Origin: Chryseobacterium nakagawai
GTDB taxonomy: Bacteria > Bacteroidota > Bacteroidia > Flavobacteriales > Weeksellaceae
Assembly (NCBI RefSeq): GCF_900637665.1
Contig: NZ_LR134386.1
Span: 5,324,501 to 5,388,500 of the forward strand
Length of the DNA stretch: 64,000 nt
Reading direction: 5' to 3'
The notes below the pieces were generated by a model, which saw only the letters and a program-made list of their open reading frames with translations, did no database searches and was not told where the DNA came from. Shown in pieces: positions 15,123 to 33,627 of the stretch; the stretch's first letter is position 1, and each line of letters begins with the position of its first letter. Both the position numbers and the translations under genes were made by a program.

Positions 15123-17465
15123 ATGGACAGAAGAGAATTTTTAGAAAAATCAAGTATTTTATTAGCTGGACTAGGAACTTCAAATGTTTTACACCCTGCT
15201 ATTCTAAAGGCTTTAGCGATAGAACCTGCTGCACAGTCTACTTTTTATGATGCAGAACATGTAGTTATTTTGATGCAGGAGAACCGTTCATTCGATCATG
15301 CTTTTGGAGCTCTCAAAGGAGTTCGTGGGTTCCTGGATAAAAGGACTTTTATTAAGCAGGATGGGCATTCCGCTTTTTTTCAAAAGGAGAAAACAGGAAA
15401 ATATGCAGCTCCGGCCCGTCTGGATTTGAGAAATACTAAATCAACATGGATGAGTTCCCTTCCCCATTCGTGGGAAAACCAGCAACAGGCATTCAATAAA
15501 GGAAAATATGACCAATGGCTTCAAGCTAAGGCTTCGGGTAACGAAAACTATAAAAATATTCCGCTTACCTTGGGCTACTACAACCGTGAAGATCTTCCAT
15601 TCTACTATCAGCTTGCGGATGCCTTTACCATATTTGACCAATATTTCTGTTCTTCAATGACTGGAACCACTCCCAACAGACTTTTTCATTGGTCGGGAAC
15701 GCTTAGAGAACAGCAAAATGGTAAATCAAAAGCTAATGTGGTGAATGATGATATTGATTATGATAAAGCAAGACAGGCAAAATGGAAAAGCTTCCCCGAA
15801 ATTTTAGAGGAGCAAAATGTTTCATGGCGTATTTATCAAAATGAGATCAGCCTTCCAAAAGGTTTATCAGGGGAACAAGAAGCATGGCTAAGTAATTTTA
15901 CAGATAATCCGATTGAATGGTTTTCAAAATTTAATGTTAAGTTTTCAAAAGGATACTATGAGCATATTCCCAATATCATTGCGTCACTGAATCAGGAGGT
16001 CCTGAAAAAACCTAACCAGAAAGAAAGACTGGAGGCCATCATTACTGAACTTCAGGAAGATCTGGTAAAATATCATCCGGATAATTATTCAAAACTTTCC
16101 CAGCAGGAGAAAAACCTCCACGAAAAAGCCTTTACAACGAATTCAAAAGATCCTGATTATCACAATCTGGAAATTGGAAAAGATGAACATGGAGAAAGAC
16201 TGGTTGTTCCCAAAGGAGATGTACTCTTCCAGTTTCGTAAGGATGTGGAAGAGAAAAAATTGCCCTCGGTTTCCTGGCTGGTAGCTCCTGAACACTTCTC
16301 AGATCATCCCGGATCACCATGGTATGGAGCATGGTATATTTCTGAGGTTTTAAATATTCTGACCAAAGATCCTGAAATGTGGAAAAAAACAATTTTCATT
16401 ATCAATTATGATGAAAATGATGGGTATTTTGACCACGTGATCCCTTTTGCACCCCCTCTAAATCCAAGCCAACCGGTTGATATCAATGGAAAAAGCGGTG
16501 TGGAATATGTAGATAAAGCTCAGGAGTATATGTCTGATCCATCATTAAAGGATTATGAAAAAGCAGAAGGAACAGTAGGATTGGGTTATAGAGTACCTAT
16601 GATTATCGCTTCCCCATGGACGAAAGGCGGTTTTGTTAATTCTGAAGTTTCAGATCATACTTCTGTTTTGCAGTTCCTGGAGAAATTTATCCTGAAGAAA
16701 TTCAATAAAAATGTTCATGTAGACAATATCAGCGAATGGAGAAGAGCTATTTGTGGAGACCTTACTTCAGCTTTTAATGCTCCCAATATCAAAGCTCCTA
16801 AAATGGACTATCTTGATCAAAAGGATTATGCTAAAACCATTAACGCAGCCAAAAATAAACCTGTTCCACAGCTAAAATGGTATTCTGAGAATGAACTGAA
16901 GAATAATTTACTTGAAATCCAGGAAAGAGGAATGAAACCTTCCCATCCTCTTCCTTATAATTTTCATGTGAATCTGGAAGCAGGTAAGATTAGAATGACT
17001 AATGCAAAAGAAAATGGAGTTCCTCTTCATCTTTATGACAGAACCCAATTGAACAATCATCATTATTATTTTTCTTATGCATTATATTCCGGGCAAGAAC
17101 TATCTCATCCCGCAAGACAATCAGGAAGTTATGATTATGAAATTTTCGGTCCTAATGGTTTCTTCCGAAAATTCAAAGGAAACAATATTCCGGAATCCGA
17201 AATTAGCTTAATCAATAATACTTCAAAAAGCCAAGTTGAACTAGTTGTTAAAAACGGACAAAAAGAAAGCATTACCTTGGAAAATATGTATGAAAAAACT
17301 AAAAAAGCAATCTCTATCCACAAACCGGAGGAGAAAATAGTGATTGACCTTATCCCATTTAAAGGCTGGTATGACTTAAAAGTAACATTGGGTGAGCATA
17401 TCTGGCATTTTGCAGGAAGACAGGAAACAGGAAAAGTTTCTGTTTCAGACCCACACTGGGCATAA
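15123..17465 (+). CDS. Secreted phospholipase C, phosphocholine-type (Tat exported)
   Basis: A 780-residue enzyme of the bacterial phosphatidylcholine-hydrolysing PLC/acid phosphatase family. The N-terminus MDRREFLEKSSILLAGLG is a Tat signal with the RR pair. Family motifs are QENRSFDHAFGAL (52-64, metal-binding E53 and N54), TPNRLFHWSGTLRE (about 182-195), INYDENDGYFDHV (about 426-438) and SDHTSVLQFLEKF (about 511-523). The C-terminal 160 residues look like the usual pair of small beta domains (DUF756). The length agrees with the family (about 700-850). It releases diacylglycerol and a phosphorylated head group outside the cytoplasm; the SusCD pair encoded just upstream could take up a product. 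A strong terminator follows. Confidence 0.93.
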   Translation: MDRREFLEKSSILLAGLGTSNVLHPAILKALAIEPAAQSTFYDAEHVVILMQENRSFDHAFGALKGVRGFLDKRTFIKQDGHSAFFQKEKTGKYAAPARLDLRNTKSTWMSSLPHSWENQQQAFNKGKYDQWLQAKASGNENYKNIPLTLGYYNREDLPFYYQLADAFTIFDQYFCSSMTGTTPNRLFHWSGTLREQQNGKSKANVVNDDIDYDKARQAKWKSFPEILEEQNVSWRIYQNEISLPKGLSGEQEAWLSNFTDNPIEWFSKFNVKFSKGYYEHIPNIIASLNQEVLKKPNQKERLEAIITELQEDLVKYHPDNYSKLSQQEKNLHEKAFTTNSKDPDYHNLEIGKDEHGERLVVPKGDVLFQFRKDVEEKKLPSVSWLVAPEHFSDHPGSPWYGAWYISEVLNILTKDPEMWKKTIFIINYDENDGYFDHVIPFAPPLNPSQPVDINGKSGVEYVDKAQEYMSDPSLKDYEKAEGTVGLGYRVPMIIASPWTKGGFVNSEVSDHTSVLQFLEKFILKKFNKNVHVDNISEWRRAICGDLTSAFNAPNIKAPKMDYLDQKDYAKTINAAKNKPVPQLKWYSENELKNNLLEIQERGMKPSHPLPYNFHVNLEAGKIRMTNAKENGVPLHLYDRTQLNNHHYYFSYALYSGQELSHPARQSGSYDYEIFGPNGFFRKFKGNNIPESEISLINNTSKSQVELVVKNGQKESITLENMYEKTKKAISIHKPEEKIVIDLIPFKGWYDLKVTLGEHIWHFAGRQETGKVSVSDPHWA

Positions 17466-17652: not shown

Positions 17653-18231
17653 ATGAATAAATTAAAACTAACCGTTGCAATGTCTTTATTTGCAGCAGCC
17701 ATATCCGGAAACCTGAGTGCTCAGGACACTAATACAGATAATCATACTATAACGATTTCTATCCCAGAAGTTGCACTGGTAGACATTGAACCTGCCGCTA
17801 CCAAAAACATTACATTAGGATTCACAGCTCCTACAGAAGCTGGTAACCCTGTTATAGCAAGCGCAGCCAATACTACTTTATGGCTTAATTATTCCTCTAT
17901 CAAATCCGTTGCAGACCCTACCCGCAATGTGAGTGTAAAGGTTAATGCTATCATTCCGGGAGTAGATATCCACGTAACAGCAGCCGCTGCTACAGGCTCA
18001 GGAGCTGGTACTTTGGGAACATCTGCAGGACTACTAACATTAAGTGCTGCTGACCAGACTATTCTTTCCGGAATCGGAAGTGCCTATACTGGAAATGGTG
18101 CTAATAATGGCCATAACCTTACGTATGCTCTTGCTGCAGGAAGTGGGCCTGGTGGTGTGGCAGCCTATGCAGACCTGCAGGCAACAGCCACTACTGTAGC
18201 TACTGTTACTTATACCATATCAGATAACTAG
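17653..18231 (+). CDS. Putative major subunit of a chaperone/usher-like surface fibre
   Basis: A 192-residue secreted protein with signal peptide 1-23 (LSA-QDT) and no cysteine in the mature part. The mature N-terminus alternates hydrophobic residues (TITISIPEVALVDIEP), as donor strands of fimbrial subunits do. Then come ITLGFTAPTEAGNP, WLNYSS, a Gly/Ala-rich AAAATGSGAGTLGT and SGIGSAYTGNGANNGHNLTY; the C-terminus ends VATVTYTISDN. All of these recur in the subunit at 21877. It is Thr/Ala/Gly rich and predicted all-beta. It is the first gene of the operon and is followed by a hairpin, which fits a major subunit made in excess. I do not recognise a named family; a distant likeness to spore-coat-U/archaic fimbrial subunits is inferred. 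Confidence 0.6.
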   Translation: MNKLKLTVAMSLFAAAISGNLSAQDTNTDNHTITISIPEVALVDIEPAATKNITLGFTAPTEAGNPVIASAANTTLWLNYSSIKSVADPTRNVSVKVNAIIPGVDIHVTAAAATGSGAGTLGTSAGLLTLSAADQTILSGIGSAYTGNGANNGHNLTYALAAGSGPGGVAAYADLQATATTVATVTYTISDN

Positions 18232-18268
18232 AATTTAAATAAAATTAGATTCTGTACTTCAAAACCAA

Positions 18269-18300
18269 GAAGAAATTGGATTCCAGTTTCTTCCTGTTTT
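18269..18300 (+). terminator. Partial terminator/processing hairpin after the first subunit gene
   Basis: GAAGAAATTGG (18269-18279) pairs with CCAGTTTCTTC (18283-18293), an 11-bp stem with one G-U pair and an ATT loop, followed by CTGTTTTTG. It lies between the first subunit and chaperone genes, a place where fimbrial operons often limit read-through. Confidence 0.7.
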
Positions 18301-18336
18301 TGTATTATCAATAATAAAAATTCCAAATTTGACATA

Positions 18337-19137
18337 ATGATAAAGCGTATTCTTTTTCTAATCACTCTGATTTTGCAGTTTAGCTTTTTACATGCCGGCA
18401 TTGTGGTTCTTAACGGGCTTACGCATTCCTATAAAATAGAAAACGGAAAAGTTTACAAAGGAAAAGTTGCCATTGAGAATACAAGTAATAATCCTCAAAG
18501 TGTAAAATTGTTTTTGCAGGACTTTACGTATCATGCTGACGGAACGATTAATTATACCGCTCTACATACTCAAAAAAGGACTAACGGAGATTGGATAAAA
18601 CTTAATACAAATTTAGTAACCCTTAAAGGGAAAGAAAAAACAGAAGTGTTTTATGAAATAACTGTTCCTAATCAGGCAATAGATCCCGGCAGTTATTGGA
18701 GTGTTATCATCGTAGAACCTGTAGATGATATCAAACCCAGCGATAAACAACCTGGAGTAAGCATTACCTCTGTAATACGGTATGCTATTCAGGTCATTAC
18801 AGATTACGACACAGAAAAGGCCAAACCGGACCTTACATTTGACAATATCAAAGTAGAAAAAGAAGAAGGAAAAAAAACTGTAAAAATTGCTATAGCTAAT
18901 AATGGAAATCTCTATTGCAAACCTACAGCATCTATTGAAATCTATAACCGCAAAACAGGCGAAAAAATAGGAACTTTTTCAAGCCTGACAATGGGGTTAC
19001 TCCCTTCTACTTCTAAAACATTTTACATTGATATCAGCAAAGTACCACCTGCACAGTATAAGGCTACTGTTATAGCAACGGACGAAGATGAGAATGCTTT
19101 CGCACTCAATGTGGAACTAGAAGTAAAAAATGATTAA
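18337..19137 (+). CDS. Two-Ig-domain periplasmic chaperone-like protein
   Basis: A 266-residue protein with signal peptide 1-20. Domain 1 (about 21-145) has the beta pattern of PapD-type or DUF916-type Ig folds: KGKVAIENTSNNPQSVKL, then GDWIKL with a strand that ends in a basic residue, and VPNQAIDPGSYWSVIIVEP. Domain 2 (about 155-262) is a second Ig-like sandwich (VKIAIANNGNLYCKPTASIE). It has one mature cysteine. The stop overlaps the usher-like gene by 8 nt, so the two are translationally coupled. The likely role is to hold secreted subunits in the periplasm and hand them to the outer-membrane protein. A Gram-positive WxL-interacting fold is the alternative likeness; the two are hard to separate by eye. 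Confidence 0.6.
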   Translation: MIKRILFLITLILQFSFLHAGIVVLNGLTHSYKIENGKVYKGKVAIENTSNNPQSVKLFLQDFTYHADGTINYTALHTQKRTNGDWIKLNTNLVTLKGKEKTEVFYEITVPNQAIDPGSYWSVIIVEPVDDIKPSDKQPGVSITSVIRYAIQVITDYDTEKAKPDLTFDNIKVEKEEGKKTVKIAIANNGNLYCKPTASIEIYNRKTGEKIGTFSSLTMGLLPSTSKTFYIDISKVPPAQYKATVIATDEDENAFALNVELEVKND

Positions 19138-21880
19138 AACCTGGACGTTATTAATTTTTATATTATTCCCGTTATTTACTTTTTCTCAACAGTCATCTGA
19201 CCGATTGGCGAGTAAAAAAGATAGTTTAATGCCGGGAACGTCTACCTCTATTCCTTTCAGACTGGAAAACAATTCGCTTGAAAATAAGGTGTATGATATT
19301 TCTGTCACTACTTCAAGTCCGCTTATCACTCCCATCCTTGCAAAAGGAGAATTTCAGATTCAGGCCCATGAAACCTCTGTATATCTTGTTCCTCTACGTA
19401 TCTCAACAGAAGCTGTTCAGGGCGACTACTCTATTGTATTACATATTACGGATCGATCTACGGGACTCATTTTTACAAAGTCCTCACAAATAACGGTTTC
19501 CGTCAACAGGAAGCTTTCCCTTACTGCATTGGATTCACCGGAGTTTACCCGGGCAGGAGAAACCATCCGGGCTTCCTTCCTTTTAAAAAACAATGGAAAT
19601 ATTACTGAAAACATTACTCTGGAAAGTAAAAATGCTGTTATCGATCATGACGCATCAATTACGCTCAGTCCAAATGAATCCAAAGTGATTATCATATATA
19701 AGAAGACCAATCCGGAGCTTGAGCAAAATGAATTTCAAAATCTAAACCTTTCAGTATACTCTAAAGATGATCCTAAGGAAAATCAAAGCGTTTATATCAG
19801 TACTCACGTGATATCCGTACAACCTGCCAGCATGGATATCTATCATCGGCTTCCTGTGGTTGCTTCATTATCCTTCATCGGAATGAAAAATATGGGAGTC
19901 TATCATGACGGTTTTCAAGGCGAAATCTATGGCAAAGGAACACTGGATAAAGAAAATAAAAACCAGATTGAGTTTCATGCCGCCACCCACAATCCTATTG
20001 AGTTCAATACTTTTACTCAGTATGAAGAATATTTTGTGAACTATAAAAGGGATAAATTATTTGTTCATCTGGGTGATAAAACATACTCTTCCTCCTATTT
20101 AACTGAATTTGCCAGATATGGCCGTGGGGCAGAAATCCGATATGATTTTAATAAAATAAGTTTAGGGGGTTTTTACAACCATCCCCGATTTTTCAGAGAT
20201 ATTAAGGATGAATTTAATATCTACTCAGCATTTAAAATTCGTAAAGAATCTGAAATTTCCGTTGGATATCTTTACAAAATACCGATGAAGGAAAATTCTG
20301 ATTTTAGGAATATCCAATTAGATTCTGAAGCTCATCTTCCTTATACCAAAGGAAAATTCAAAGTTTCGAAAAACATTAACCTTTCGGGAGAATTTGCTTA
20401 TAGCACCACAAAGAAAAATGAAGGAACAGCCTATATGGCGCAGGCTGAAGTGAATTTTGAAAAGTTGAATGGAAATCTGATGTATATGAAAGCAAGCCCA
20501 CAATTTGCAGGCTACTTTACCAATACCAGTACTTTCAGCGGATATCTTCAGTACAGAGTATCGAAAAAAATCAATGTTTTTGCCAATTATATGCAGGATG
20601 CTAAAAACTTTCAGAGAGATACCTTATTTCTGGCCGCTCCCTACAGAAAATATTTTCAATATGGAATACAGTATAAGTACCTTTCCAATGGCTTTATAAT
20701 GCTTAATAATGGCTATCAAAAATACCAGGATCGTTTAGAGCCTAAACAGTTTGATTATTATGAGCGTTTCATTAGAGTCTCTGTAGACCAGCATATCGGA
20801 GTATTTCAGATTAACCTTGAAGGGCAATTTGGAAAAACAGATAATTATCTGACAGGATTTAATGGAAATTCAACGTTATATTCCGCAAATCTCTCATTTG
20901 AAAAATTTAAAACATCATTCAACGTCTTTGGAAGCTATGCCATGACTTCCAGATATCAATTACAAAACCAAAAACAGTTGTATTATGGAGCAAGAGTGTT
21001 TAGCAGGTTCTCAGATAAAACAAGCTTAAGCATTTTTTACCAAAACAACTACATGCCTGAGGAATACTTTAAAGACAGAAATTTATTTGAGTTATTATTC
21101 CACCAGCAATTATTTCCAGGAAACGACCTGGATCTTTCAGGAAGATACTCACTACAAAGGGGACAAATAGGAGATAAGGATTTTATATTTTCAATGCGCT
21201 ATACCTGGCGGCCAAATATTCCTGTGCAAAGAACTGCCGAATATGTTTCGTTATCCGGTAATATCAATACCCTTGGAATCAAAAAAAAGGAAGGCATAAG
21301 ATTAATGCTGGGAAGCTATCTATCTGTTACAGACAAAGAAGGTAATTATTTATTTAAAAATGTGATTCCAGGTAATTATTTCCTGGAAATAGATCGTTCC
21401 ACCATAGAAATCAATGATATCCCAACCCTCTCAATTCCAGCAGCATTATCCCTTAATAACAAGGAAAACATTTTTAATTTCGGACTCACTACAGCCGCAA
21501 ATATACAAGGCTATATCCAACTTTCGGAAACGGAAGAAAAAAATCAAACGGATATTGAAACATTACAAACTAAAAAAGGAAAAAATAAGAGAGAAAGCAT
21601 CATTGTAGAAGCCATTGGCAACGATCAGACTTTTCGTAAAATATGTTTTATAGGAGAAGCATTCGATTTTACCTATCTCCGGCCGGGAGACTGGACAGTT
21701 AAACTGTATAGAAATGGTCTTGATAAACGATATAAAATTTCAACAGATAAATTTCAAATTACTTTAAAACCTTCAGAAATAAAAAAACTCAACATCCAGA
21801 TTGTTAAACAACAGATAGAAATTAAATATCAGCAGGAATCCTTAAAAGTAGGATATAATCAAATAAAAAATAAGAAATGA
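19130..21880 (+). CDS. Usher-like outer-membrane protein (Ig domains, beta-barrel, carboxypeptidase-fold C-domains)
   Basis: A 916-residue protein with signal peptide 1-19. Two Ig/NPCBM-like sandwiches occupy about 20-125 and 130-225. A long stretch of aromatic, alternating strands (about 235-695: for example FNTFTQYEEYFVNYKRDKLF, FMLNNGYQKYQDR-like turns) is predicted to be an outer-membrane beta-barrel. Then comes a carboxypeptidase-regulatory-like domain (about 703-770, SLSGNINTLG...VTDKEGNYLFKNVIPGNYFLEI) and a second small beta domain (about 785-895). Classical fimbrial ushers also have N-terminal and C-terminal soluble domains around a large barrel, but I see no usher signature residues, so homology is unproven. 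Overlap of 8 nt with the chaperone-like gene and 4 nt (ATGA) with the next subunit gene ties it to the system. It probably exports and anchors the subunits. Confidence 0.6.
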   Translation: MIKTWTLLIFILFPLFTFSQQSSDRLASKKDSLMPGTSTSIPFRLENNSLENKVYDISVTTSSPLITPILAKGEFQIQAHETSVYLVPLRISTEAVQGDYSIVLHITDRSTGLIFTKSSQITVSVNRKLSLTALDSPEFTRAGETIRASFLLKNNGNITENITLESKNAVIDHDASITLSPNESKVIIIYKKTNPELEQNEFQNLNLSVYSKDDPKENQSVYISTHVISVQPASMDIYHRLPVVASLSFIGMKNMGVYHDGFQGEIYGKGTLDKENKNQIEFHAATHNPIEFNTFTQYEEYFVNYKRDKLFVHLGDKTYSSSYLTEFARYGRGAEIRYDFNKISLGGFYNHPRFFRDIKDEFNIYSAFKIRKESEISVGYLYKIPMKENSDFRNIQLDSEAHLPYTKGKFKVSKNINLSGEFAYSTTKKNEGTAYMAQAEVNFEKLNGNLMYMKASPQFAGYFTNTSTFSGYLQYRVSKKINVFANYMQDAKNFQRDTLFLAAPYRKYFQYGIQYKYLSNGFIMLNNGYQKYQDRLEPKQFDYYERFIRVSVDQHIGVFQINLEGQFGKTDNYLTGFNGNSTLYSANLSFEKFKTSFNVFGSYAMTSRYQLQNQKQLYYGARVFSRFSDKTSLSIFYQNNYMPEEYFKDRNLFELLFHQQLFPGNDLDLSGRYSLQRGQIGDKDFIFSMRYTWRPNIPVQRTAEYVSLSGNINTLGIKKKEGIRLMLGSYLSVTDKEGNYLFKNVIPGNYFLEIDRSTIEINDIPTLSIPAALSLNNKENIFNFGLTTAANIQGYIQLSETEEKNQTDIETLQTKKGKNKRESIIVEAIGNDQTFRKICFIGEAFDFTYLRPGDWTVKLYRNGLDKRYKISTDKFQITLKPSEIKKLNIQIVKQQIEIKYQQESLKVGYNQIKNKK

Positions 21881-22404
21881 TTTTGAAACACTCCCTAATA
21901 CTAGCATCTTTTATTTTTTCGGGTGTATTATATTCTCAGGCAAACATTACTCTAACTTTACCTGTTGTGACCTTAATGGATATAGAACCAACAGGAAATA
22001 TTACTTTAAAATTTACAGCACCTACTGAAGCCGGAAATCCTCTTGCCAACCCAACACCTGATACTTCAAAGTGGATCAATTATACTTCTGCAATTACTTC
22101 CGGAGGACTTACCAGGAGAATTACAGCAGCTATTAGCGGTACTACCCTCATTCCGGGAGTGAATATCAGGCTACAGGCAGCAGCAGCATCCGGAGCAGGA
22201 GGCGGGACCTTAGGAACTCCTTCTGCACAAGTAACCCTCACCAATACTCCTATTACCATCATAAGTGGTATTGGAGGAGCTTACACAGGCAATGGGGTTA
22301 ATAATGGACACCGCCTTACGATATCCCTCGTTCCAAGCACGTATGCAAATTTATCTGCACAAACCAATACCGTTCTTACCATTGTCTATACTATTACAGA
22401 ATAA
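21877..22404 (+). CDS. Second fibre subunit, paralogue of the first
   Basis: A 175-residue secreted protein; signal peptide 1-20 (LYS-QAN). It repeats the layout of the subunit at 17653: alternating N-terminal strand ITLTLPVVTLMDIEP, ITLKFTAPTEAGNP, WINYTS, IPGVNIRLQAAAASGAGGGT, SGIGGAYTGNGVNNGHRLT and C-terminal strand VLTIVYTITE. Its ATG overlaps the usher-like stop (ATGA). It has no cysteine in the mature part. A minor or adaptor subunit is a reasonable reading, because it lies after the usher-like gene while its paralogue lies before the chaperone. Function is inferred from operon logic only. Confidence 0.6.
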   Translation: MILKHSLILASFIFSGVLYSQANITLTLPVVTLMDIEPTGNITLKFTAPTEAGNPLANPTPDTSKWINYTSAITSGGLTRRITAAISGTTLIPGVNIRLQAAAASGAGGGTLGTPSAQVTLTNTPITIISGIGGAYTGNGVNNGHRLTISLVPSTYANLSAQTNTVLTIVYTITE

Positions 22405-22413
22405 AACGGAAAT

Positions 22414-22995
22414 ATGAAAATGAATGGACTCTTCTTCGGAAACACACTTATAAAAAGGTATTTATTTACTTTTATTTTATTTGTAAGCAGCAGCTATATG
22501 GAGGCACAGGTAGTAAATGTCTCCGGAAGCTGGACCGCCAGTATACCTTCTATTACTGAAGCGGGAAATAATTATTCCGGAACTTATGATAACACTGGCA
22601 ACACCGGTACTAATCAGATCATACTCTCCGGAACATTACCAGGATCTTTTCTCAACCTCCTTTCAAGTACGGGAGCAAAAATGACCATGCATTACACCTC
22701 CAACCCCTGGAATACTTCTATGACGCTTTCTGCAAGAAGAACCGGAGGAACAACAGCAATACATGGGGTCTGTCTTCTGTGTACGGCAACAATCAATGGA
22801 GGAACAACCTATATTCCAATACCACAATCACCTGATGTAACATTTCTAACGTTTACTTTTGGTGGGGTTTTAGGACTGGGGAATAGTGTTACTTTCTCAG
22901 ATATTGTTTTACTCCTACAGGTATCTGGTGTTTCTGTCACCATTCCTGCAAGCACTTATGGCGCGCGGGTAGTTTTCACCATCGTTGCCAATTGA
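22414..22995 (+). CDS. Third fibre subunit, possible tip or cap protein
   Basis: A 193-residue secreted protein with a long N-region and a signal peptide to about residue 31 (MEA-QVV). The mature protein is Thr/Ser/Gly rich and predicted all-beta. It lacks the DIEP...APTEAG core of the other two subunits but ends similarly: IPASTYGARVVFTIVAN, with the (Y/F)TI strand at the very C-terminus. C120 and C123 form a CxxC (GVCLLCT), unique among the three subunits. As the last gene of the operon with a divergent body, it could be the tip, adhesin or base subunit. I do not recognise its family. Confidence 0.5.
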   Translation: MKMNGLFFGNTLIKRYLFTFILFVSSSYMEAQVVNVSGSWTASIPSITEAGNNYSGTYDNTGNTGTNQIILSGTLPGSFLNLLSSTGAKMTMHYTSNPWNTSMTLSARRTGGTTAIHGVCLLCTATINGGTTYIPIPQSPDVTFLTFTFGGVLGLGNSVTFSDIVLLLQVSGVSVTIPASTYGARVVFTIVAN

Positions 22996-23109: not shown

Positions 23110-25005
23110 TTAGTGCTTTGCCCACCAAAGAGGGGTAAGAACTGCATCTTGTCCGCCCAGTAACTGCACTGCTTTTGTGTACCCATCCTGATCTGTATTC
23201 CTGAAAGTACTTGGATATCTTAGCCTCTGAGGGAAATTCTGAATAGAGTTTGTCATATAATTTCCTGAATTCAAACTAGGTAAATTAACCAACGGTGTTT
23301 CTATTGCAGGGTTTTCAAAGAAAGGTAATCCCAGTCTTCGTTGATCGCTCCAGGATTCTAAAGGAAGCCATGGCATATTCGCAATGTATTTTTGGGTAAT
23401 GATTTTTGTAAGCTTATCATTTTTCACTGAGCCATTTTTGTAGATGGTATTCACCGGGTATTTAATTTCAACAGAAACCATATTTCCAGTAGAAGGATCT
23501 TTATAATTCATGGTATGACTGGCTCCAGGCTCTGCCACATGGCTATAAGCTACAGAAGTTCCGTCACGGTTATAATCCGTTGAGGTAATATACTGAATAT
23601 AAAATTGTGAAACTCCATTATACGCAAAGCTATCCTGAATTCCTTTATTATAGGCCGCATCATCACTCATTGGAACTGCCCATCCTTTCAGGGCTGCTTC
23701 AGCCATCAGGAAATAAGTTTCCCAACTTGCAAAAAAGATTCGAAAGTTCTTACCTTCTCTATATTGTTTTCCTAACGCCGGCATGCATCCAATAACTCCT
23801 CTTAACCCGTTTCTTTGGCCTTTTACACCCCAGTTCCCTATAGTAGTCGTATTCCAGGTATTTACCGTATTGATAGTAACTTTAGAACCGTTGGCAAAAG
23901 TAAGATCTCCACTATTAGTAGACGCTTGGTTGGTATTAATAGGATAAAGGGAATAAATTGGATTGTTGAAATCTCCGGGAATATAAAATGTTTTATAAGC
24001 CCTTGGATCGATTTTATTTGGAAGCCCATCCAGCCAATATCCTGCAGTTGGGTCATTGGTCATTGTTGAGAACTGTTCATCATATTTTATGCCGATATAA
24101 TCAGCATCTTTCACAGCTGTATGCTGAGCAGCAGGCAATTGATCTGTAGAATTAACTCCTCCCAAACCAATATACATATTATTAAGGGTAGCTGATAAAA
24201 TCTGTGAATTCCATTCCCTAGACATTACTCCTGATAAAGGATTCCAACCGGTATCTTCTTTAACTCTAAAATTATCATCGCTTGTACTGATGAACATATT
24301 AGAATTAGCTGCGGCCTCAAACTCTGTTTTTGCTTTGGCAGGATCCACTTCTGAAATTCTCATCGCCACTCTCATTCTCATGGAGTTGGCATATTTTACC
24401 CATTGACTCCATTTAAAGCTATAGACCATATCATAAGCATTAGGATTGGAAGGAATAGGTTGGTTCACATCCATTTTAGTAACTGCATCCTTTAACTCAT
24501 CTAAAATAAAATAATACACCTCTTTTTCAGAATTAAAACCAGGATTTACTCCTTTAAATGCCTGAATTGGCTGTGGACCAAAATTATCAGAAAACTCGCT
24601 CATCAGATAAGCTCTCCAAATCCTGGCTACCTGGATAAGATTATCATAATGAGGTTTGCCCTGACCTATTGCTTTCTTTTCATTGGCAATTTCAATAGTT
24701 GCATTGGCATTATTCAGCCATTCTGAAATTCCTTTCCAATATTCTACAGTCCAGGAATCATCATATGATCCACCTGCAATTCCTGTCGACAAATGCTGTC
24801 TTGCAGCAGTTTTCCAATACAAAACAAAAGTACGTTCAGCAATATTGGGATCTTGCTGTGCTCCTAAAATAGAATTATTTAAAAAATACTCCGGTTCTGC
24901 TTTATTAATATCTACAGAAAACGGATCGTTATTGATGTCTTCAAAATCATTACATGATGTACAAACGACAGCCAACGCAATGAGGGATAAAATATATTTT
25001 TTCAT
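23110..25005 (-). CDS. SusD-like outer-membrane lipoprotein (SusD-like_2 type)
   Basis: A 631-residue lipoprotein with lipobox CTSC (C18) followed by NDFEDINNDPFSVD. The core includes WKGISEWLNNANATIEIA and WETYFLMAEAALKGW, typical of the SusD-like_2 group, and it is longer than the copy at 13520. It starts 16 nt after the susC stop, so it is co-transcribed with it, and the pair ends at the shared terminator. No degradative enzyme is encoded in this operon, so the ligand cannot be guessed from context. Confidence 0.9.
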   Translation of the reverse strand: MKKYILSLIALAVVCTSCNDFEDINNDPFSVDINKAEPEYFLNNSILGAQQDPNIAERTFVLYWKTAARQHLSTGIAGGSYDDSWTVEYWKGISEWLNNANATIEIANEKKAIGQGKPHYDNLIQVARIWRAYLMSEFSDNFGPQPIQAFKGVNPGFNSEKEVYYFILDELKDAVTKMDVNQPIPSNPNAYDMVYSFKWSQWVKYANSMRMRVAMRISEVDPAKAKTEFEAAANSNMFISTSDDNFRVKEDTGWNPLSGVMSREWNSQILSATLNNMYIGLGGVNSTDQLPAAQHTAVKDADYIGIKYDEQFSTMTNDPTAGYWLDGLPNKIDPRAYKTFYIPGDFNNPIYSLYPINTNQASTNSGDLTFANGSKVTINTVNTWNTTTIGNWGVKGQRNGLRGVIGCMPALGKQYREGKNFRIFFASWETYFLMAEAALKGWAVPMSDDAAYNKGIQDSFAYNGVSQFYIQYITSTDYNRDGTSVAYSHVAEPGASHTMNYKDPSTGNMVSVEIKYPVNTIYKNGSVKNDKLTKIITQKYIANMPWLPLESWSDQRRLGLPFFENPAIETPLVNLPSLNSGNYMTNSIQNFPQRLRYPSTFRNTDQDGYTKAVQLLGGQDAVLTPLWWAKH

Positions 25006-28406: not shown

Positions 28407-28421
28407 AAAAATAAAATAAAA

Positions 28422-28530
<109 letters not shown>

Positions 28531-28540
28531 GGCTTTATAT

Positions 28541-28612
28541 AAGATATCAGAGGATAGATTTCAGATCTCAGACTTAAAGTCTGTTATCTGATGTCTTATA
28601 TCTGACATCTGT
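28541..28612. repeat. TCTGA-type repeat in the 23S-5S spacer
   Basis: Clustered TCAGAT/ATCTGA units form an imperfect hairpin (CAGATCTCAGACTT opposite AAGTCTGTTATCTG). An 18-nt string, ATCTGATGTCTTATATCT (28586-28603), recurs exactly in the tRNA spacer at 31764-31781. Confidence 0.75.
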
Positions 28613-28631
28613 TTTAATCGATAAAAACTTT

Positions 28632-28646
28632 CACAAAGAGCTAACC
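28632..28646 (-). other. 23S processing stem, 3' arm
   Basis: On the transcript GGTTAGCTCTTTGTG is complementary (14 of 15) to CACAAAGAGATAACC at 31517-31531, upstream of 23S. The pair encloses 23S as an RNase III-type processing stem would. Confidence 0.75.
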
Positions 28647-28669
28647 TTGCTGCACTTTCGTGCGCCATA

Positions 28670-31436
<2,767 letters not shown>

Positions 31437-31516
31437 CCTAATATTAAATTAGTTCAGTATTTTTTGATAAATTAAATTTATCGATATTTTTATAAACTCG
31501 GCACTCGAAAGTGCTC

Positions 31517-31531
31517 GGTTATCTCTTTGTG
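31517..31531 (-). other. 23S processing stem, 5' arm
   Basis: CACAAAGAGATAACC on the transcript pairs with the arm at 28632-28646. A local hairpin (GAGCACTTTCGAGTGC) lies just inside it. Confidence 0.75.
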
Positions 31532-31547
31532 ATGTCTTTACCGTTAA

Positions 31548-31560
31548 TGTCAATGATCTT
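31548..31560 (-). promoter_or_regulatory. boxA-like antitermination motif before 23S
   Basis: The transcript reads AAGATCATTGACA, identical over 13 nt to the copy before 16S (33666-33678) and similar to boxA of other bacteria (TGCTCTTTAACA in E. coli). The same order, one boxA before each large rRNA, is known from rRNA operons. Confidence 0.65.
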
Positions 31561-31638
31561 AAATTCTTCTTGTCCAACTGATGAACGAATATTGTTTTTG
31601 GCTCTATCCGTAACTTTTAAATCAGTCTTCCAAAACTG

Positions 31639-31712
31639 TGGAGAATAAGGGAGTCGAACCCTTGACCTCCTGCGTGCAAGGCAGGCGCTCTAGCCAGCTG
31701 AGCTAATTCCCC
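31639..31712 (-). tRNA. tRNA-Ala (TGC anticodon)
   Basis: A 74-nt cloverleaf: acceptor GGGGAAT with ATTCTCC (one G-U pair), D-arm AGCTCAGCTGGCTAGAGC, anticodon loop CTTGCAC giving TGC, T-arm GGGTTCGACTCCC. The CCA is not encoded beyond the discriminator A. Confidence 0.95.
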
Positions 31713-31723
31713 TCTAGTAGACT

Positions 31724-31782
31724 TCAGATTTTAGATCTCAGATTACAGACTTTATTGTCTGACATCTGATGTCTTATATCTT
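31724..31782. repeat. TCTGA-type repeat in the tRNA spacer
   Basis: Same family as 28541-28612: CAGATTACAGAC opposite GTCTGACATCTG forms an imperfect hairpin, and the 18-nt string at 31764-31781 is exact between copies. Confidence 0.75.
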
Positions 31783-31799
31783 CCCGTCTTTTTAATTAG

Positions 31800-31873
31800 T
31801 AGTCTCGGGCAGGCTCGAACTGCCGACCTCTACATTATCAGTGTAGCGCTCTAACCAGCTGAGCTACGAGACT
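31800..31873 (-). tRNA. tRNA-Ile (GAT anticodon)
   Basis: A 74-nt cloverleaf: acceptor AGTCTCG/CGAGACT, D-arm AGCTCAGCTGGTTAGAGC, anticodon loop CTGATAA giving GAT, T-arm GCAGTTCGAGCCTGC. The Ile-Ala pair between 16S and 23S is the usual rRNA spacer set. Confidence 0.95.
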
Positions 31874-31880
31874 GTCTGTT

Positions 31881-31916
31881 AGACTAACAGATTTCAGATA
31901 ACAGATATCAGATTTA
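31881..31916. repeat. TCTGA-type repeat in the 16S-tRNA spacer
   Basis: A shorter, opposite-facing copy with CAGATTTCAGATAACAGATA; same TCAGAT units as the other two copies. Confidence 0.6.
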
Positions 31917-31986
31917 ACTGACCATCCTATCTTCATCCTTGTCTCTCTCAATCCCTTTACTAATTTCTAGTGGGTTTTGTATTTTT

Positions 31987-32018
31987 AATATAATCAACCA
32001 AACAAAAAACTAAAGCTT
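31987..32018 (-). other. 16S processing stem, 3' arm
   Basis: On the transcript AAGCTTTAGTTTTTTGTTTG, followed by GTTGATTATATT, pairs over about 30 bases with the leader segment at 33628-33662, with a few mismatches. Confidence 0.75.
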
Positions 32019-32079
32019 TACTTTGAATAAGTACTTGTATCCGAAGATACTAATTTTGTTTATCGTCTAAAAGACGCTC

Positions 32080-33597
<1,518 letters not shown>

Positions 33598-33627
33598 TAT
33601 GTTTGTCTGACTCACTCAAAGTTTTTT

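Follow-up and report, generated by a model that had tools for sequence, protein, structure and literature searches.

A conserved five-gene operon of Chryseobacterium nakagawai that probably encodes a chaperone-usher-like pilus assembly system

In a stretch of 64,000 nucleotides from Chryseobacterium nakagawai (contig NZ_LR134386.1, positions 5,324,501 to 5,388,500; hereafter the window, with positions counted from its first letter), we analysed an operon of five genes that probably encodes a system for assembling pili, one that works in the manner of chaperone-usher systems and belongs to a branch found in Bacteroidota. The operon combines a conserved gene set, a chaperone of the WxLIP type, a barrel protein with usher-like predicted architecture, and subunits whose predicted folds are weakly pilin-like. 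We do not place it among the known chaperone-usher families, because the sequence tests for Usher and PapD gave no match and the predicted barrel has no plug. The initial annotation had called five open reading frames, their order, and overlaps of 8 nt between the chaperone and barrel genes and of 4 nt between the barrel and subunit 2 genes, all of which proved exact on the + strand:

17653-18231, + strand: subunit 1, 192 amino acids, Sec-like signal, candidate major pilin (open reading frame list)
18269-18293, + strand: terminator-like hairpin in the gap between the subunit 1 and chaperone genes, possible attenuator (hairpin scan)
18337-19137, + strand: candidate periplasmic chaperone of the WxLIP type, 266 amino acids, two immunoglobulin (Ig)-like domains, PF06030 and PF11797
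19130-21880, + strand: usher-like outer-membrane barrel protein, 916 amino acids (AlphaFold2 architecture)
21877-22404, + strand: subunit 2, pilin-like, 175 amino acids
22414-22995, + strand: subunit 3, candidate tip or terminal subunit with a CxxC pair, 193 amino acids

The survey of gene neighbourhoods that had been proposed along with these calls found the order subunit 1, chaperone, barrel, subunit 2, subunit 3 intact in 42 of 42 related loci, which were gathered with the barrel protein as query, such that the presence of the barrel is built in. Because this order is kept throughout, coding is established far beyond chance. Five separate open reading frames are present in 39 of the 42 loci; the chaperone is split into two frames in L002 (6275-7008), and subunits 2 and 3 are fused in L027 and L038. 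A single locus lies outside the genus, that of Arundinibacter roseus (L038, barrel identity 46%), and the closest named homologues of the barrel are Chryseobacterium proteins. Among 20 further stretches, of which L120 apparently duplicates L037, all five genes were matched in 19, with no match for subunit 1 in L133. The barrel was matched in 130 of 148 Chryseobacterium genomes, near full length in 124 by row count; the match is partial in G411 and G489, weak in G431 and an 80-residue remnant in G095, and the gene is fragmented by several stops in G450 and G454. Chryseobacterium is a common genus of environmental and opportunistic bacteria, in which the five-gene system is near-core.

The chaperone passes both WxLIP cut-offs in Pfam, PF06030 with 29.1 bits (cut-off 27.3) and PF11797 with 36 bits (28.9), and hence carries both the PGBD and the HBD domain of this family. 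As a single sequence it matches EfmWxLIP1 at an E-value of only 0.011, whereas a profile of 18 chaperone rows matches it (PDB 9i25, 9i1y) at 6.3e-8 over positions 46-264. The PapD family is absent from the five Pfam matches of the chaperone, the same profile found no PapD or FimC chain in the PDB at E up to 10, and hhalign gave 0.3% against FimC. Among 395 genomes of the phylum, PF06030 reaches E 0.001 or better in 15 and exceeds its cut-off in 7; two controls, Thermotoga maritima and Lactococcus lactis, were matched as well. Among the related chaperones L107, L108, L109, L146, L172 and L176, a WxLIP cut-off is passed by L107 alone (HBD). The PGBD profile also matches same-order proteins at L045, L048, L049 and L054, in open frames of 779-826 amino acids.

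For the barrel protein, an AlphaFold2 model (predicted local distance difference test 83.9, predicted template modelling score 0.59) has two Ig domains (about 38-123 and 129-228), a barrel at 243-693, two C-terminal domains (about 704-775 and 784-893) and a basic tail. The order Ig, Ig, barrel, carboxypeptidase-like fold that had been read from the sequence is borne out by this model, Pfam alone giving sub-threshold matches; likewise, the usher architecture of N-terminal domain, barrel and two C-terminal domains is seen in the predicted model only. When the whole model was compared by Foldseek, rows 1-12 were FimD and PapC chains, at template modelling (TM) scores of about 0.3. FimD/PapC ushers have a barrel of 24 strands into which a plug domain is inserted. 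About 24 strands had been expected here as well, and a large barrel was indeed modelled, but 26 strands were counted in the DSSP assignment of that model, and inserts of at least 25 amino acids inside the barrel occur in 0 of 46 aligned sequences, so that there is no plug insert. PF00577 (Usher) is absent from the eight Pfam matches of the barrel protein, all sub-threshold at E up to 10. None of 296 Bacteroidota genomes has a PF00577 match over the cut-off, and three, all in one family of the phylum (f24), have weaker ones at E up to 0.001, in a search that detected the E. coli positive control. Direct homology to FimD or FimC was considered and is undetectable by profile comparison. A second barrel match in the genome of the window (L145) resembles, by eye, a TonB-type receptor rather than a paralogue.

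The sequences of subunits 1 and 2 align with each other, and their profile matches that of distant subunits by hhalign at 98.6% (E 5.3e-16; controls at most 2.8%), while subunit 3 shows only weak profile similarity to the other two. The mature N-terminus of subunit 1 has alternating hydrophobic residues and its C-terminus reads VTYTISDN; the CxxC of subunit 3 is kept in 19 of 20 aligned rows. A search with the L038 fusion gave 23 protein clusters, in 15 of which subunit 3 is joined on after subunit 2. In a model of this fusion the linker strands 181-186 and 189-194 are predicted as beta, and Foldseek returned nothing for it at E 0.001. The best fold rows for the subunits are polymerising pilins and the fibril protein TLP-1, the latter scoring within 1 Z of CfaB (7.3) and FimH (6.9); TLP-1 has no sequence match to the subunits. 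A candidate role as cargo of the type IX secretion system was rejected, since no sorting-tail family is among the Pfam matches of the subunits.

The hairpin behind subunit 1 carries a T tract. A scan of the whole region gave 4 terminator-like sites where 3.7 were expected. Counting the window, 27 of 43 loci carry a terminator-like hairpin between the subunit 1 and chaperone genes, as compared to 4 of 860 mononucleotide shuffles, these loci being related and hence not independent. In L019 and L030, which are among the 27, the hairpin is a different, short one, and 16 loci have none by the rule used. An attenuator after a major subunit gene would yield more subunit 1 than assembly proteins.

The operon resembles chaperone-usher pili (FimC/FimD, PapD/PapC, CfaA/CfaC) in its order of subunit, chaperone, usher and further subunits (as in the K-12 fim operon), in the two Ig domains of its chaperone, in the modelled N-terminal domain, large barrel and C-terminal domains, and in the pilin-like fold matches. 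It differs from them in the WxLIP type of the chaperone, the two N-terminal Ig domains of the barrel protein, and its barrel of about 26 modelled strands. PapD-type chaperones donate their strand in parallel. In AlphaFold2 models described in an excerpt of a study of the Firmicute WxL system, a WxLIP strand completes the WxL domain, also in parallel (PMC10599100). It is because of this published model and the pilin-like folds that we propose a strand-lending chaperone here. Subunits 1-3 would be exported by Sec, as their signal-like N-termini suggest (hydrophobic stretches seen by eye, with no predictor, in all five proteins). In the periplasm the chaperone would lend a beta strand to each unfinished Ig-like subunit, and the resulting pairs would bind the barrel protein at its Ig or C-terminal domains. 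The wide, plug-less pore would then pass the subunits outward, while the incoming subunit's N-terminal strand would take the place of the chaperone strand. Subunit 1, with the hairpin 3′ of its gene, is the likely major subunit, and subunits 2 and 3 may be minor or tip parts. The initial annotation had spoken of a separate branch or a convergent system that assembles a surface fibre, a reading that is partly supported: the usher-like architecture and the weakly pilin-like predicted subunits agree with such an assembly system, whereas the fibre itself we infer.

Profiles extend the family beyond these close relatives. The chaperones of the window and of a distant set match at E 8.5e-43 and the barrels at E 1.8e-68, with reversed and shuffled profile controls reaching at most 3.0% probability. 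By profile, the chaperone directly adjoins the barrel in 14 of 14 loci (L064, L065, L107-L114, L174-L177), of which only L174-L177 lay outside both training sets. Near the adjoining pairs that were inspected there are small beta proteins whose starts look like signals, not clearly so in L177. A search of 24 loci found the chaperone in 23 and the barrel in 21. It missed both in L115 and the barrel in L061/L137, a single locus retrieved two times, and gave low scores for the barrels of L138 and L146. Full-scale barrel relatives (more than 200 bits) occur in 15 of 296 genomes of the phylum; the 208 of 296 matched at all by the same profile (A8) are not counted, the rows inspected being mostly short stretches that match the carboxypeptidase-like part. 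Many of the matches in 27 of 395 phylum genomes in another search are short as well. In one lineage (L062, L063, L171-L173) the chaperones match that of the window by hhalign at 95.9% and the distant set at 98.0% (controls 0.2% or less), and the barrels are inseparable from controls (16%; in another comparison 5.2% real vs 2.0% reversed). In family f24 of the phylum (L062, L171, L172, L173), the large usher-like protein is of a different kind and matches PF00577 or TcfC weakly, a possible bridge to classical ushers.

Further systems were seen in other Chryseobacterium. One paralogous type (L061, 3414-12100) has five subunit-like genes, a WxLIP-type chaperone, a 934-amino-acid barrel protein and a 477-amino-acid possible tip protein, followed by a likely histidine kinase and response regulator pair; it exceeds 1700 bits in 26 of 60 Chryseobacterium genomes and has no match in that of the window. 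A third type, at one locus (L146, 4053-9953), has a chaperone, a 341-amino-acid possible tip protein and a 932-amino-acid barrel.

What weighs against a chaperone-usher-like working is that PapC ties with porins in the structure comparison, which lowered our confidence in it. The barrel could be a convergent export pore of the MtrB or porin kind, with added Ig domains, that exports small beta proteins one at a time. MtrB serves as an electron-transfer conduit, and the match to 6r2q chain B of the Mtr complex, which we take to be MtrB, is limited to 238-695 of our model. We consider such a pore quite unlikely: the 12 usher chains top the whole-model ranking, the gene order is like that of K-12 fimA-I-C-D-F-G-H, and a dedicated two-Ig chaperone next to the pore would need another reason. 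Also unlikely is a surface complex like that of the Firmicute WxL system, in which the WxLIP-type protein stabilises small Ig proteins without forming a fibre and the barrel is only an anchor or exporter. The chaperone is a WxLIP homologue by Pfam and by its profile match to EfmWxLIP1, its gene is clustered with those of small beta proteins, and one WxLIP plus two WxL proteins is the most frequent composition of WxL clusters (98 of 179) in an excerpt of the study (PMC10599100). However, the chaperone has no C-terminal membrane helix, its end reading ..LNVELEVKND by eye, and subunits 1-3 have no Pfam match at E up to 10, WxL domain included, though no fold comparison with WxL was made and the VIA fold listing used for the subunits does not include WxL domains. 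Furthermore, the host is diderm, the outer-membrane barrel is present in all 42 loci (as the query would ensure), and the best subunit folds are those of polymerising pilins and TLP-1.

Type V (FimA/Mfa) fimbriae are built from lipoproteins and are not known to have an Ig chaperone-usher pair dedicated to them. They are described for another member of the Bacteroidota, Porphyromonas gingivalis, in excerpts among the literature matches listed. That the operon encodes such a fimbria is very improbable and already contradicted by sequence, as 0 of 5 operon proteins have a Cys within the first 40 residues and the subunits match no Pfam family; it was rejected on these grounds.

The neighbours show no sign of operon membership: upstream lies a phosphoesterase of the phospholipase C type (15123-17465, Pfam), downstream a SusD-like gene (23110-25005, opposite strand, by eye). 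A complete rRNA operon (5S, 23S, two tRNAs, 16S) follows at 28421-33598 on the - strand. Of the 42 loci fetched with the barrel, 21 stop within about 1 kb past the five-gene operon, and assembly breaks at an rRNA operon may lie behind this; the contig of L006 ends inside a 5S gene, and L010 has no rRNA match.

Returning to a chaperone-usher-like assembly system, a wider claim is possible but doubtful, namely that a distinct plug-less, WxLIP-driven chaperone-usher class exists in Bacteroidota and their neighbours, that pond-water pili of the TLP-1 kind belong to it, and that the Firmicute WxL system is a related form of this chaperone-subunit pair in cells that lack an outer membrane. TLP-1 in the CryoSeek paper reportedly comes from pond water and shows donor-strand packing; its fibrils TLP-1a and TLP-1b are PDB 9ikj and 9ikk. 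No description of the five-gene system was found in the open-licence literature among the matches listed, and in existing annotation the label "COG1470 family protein" is attached to some relatives of the barrel, and "DUF4402 domain-containing" or "CS1 type fimbria" to some of the subunits. If our reading is right, a chaperone-usher-like pathway of Bacteroidota has been overlooked by annotation, because barrel and subunits of this operon pass no Pfam cut-off and the chaperone takes its name from a Gram-positive system. The pathway would also link WxL complexes to pilus chaperones and offer a natural test of the requirement for a plug in ushers. Finally, pond-water filaments, the source of which could according to an excerpt not be conclusively identified (PMC12967142), would gain a candidate set of genes.
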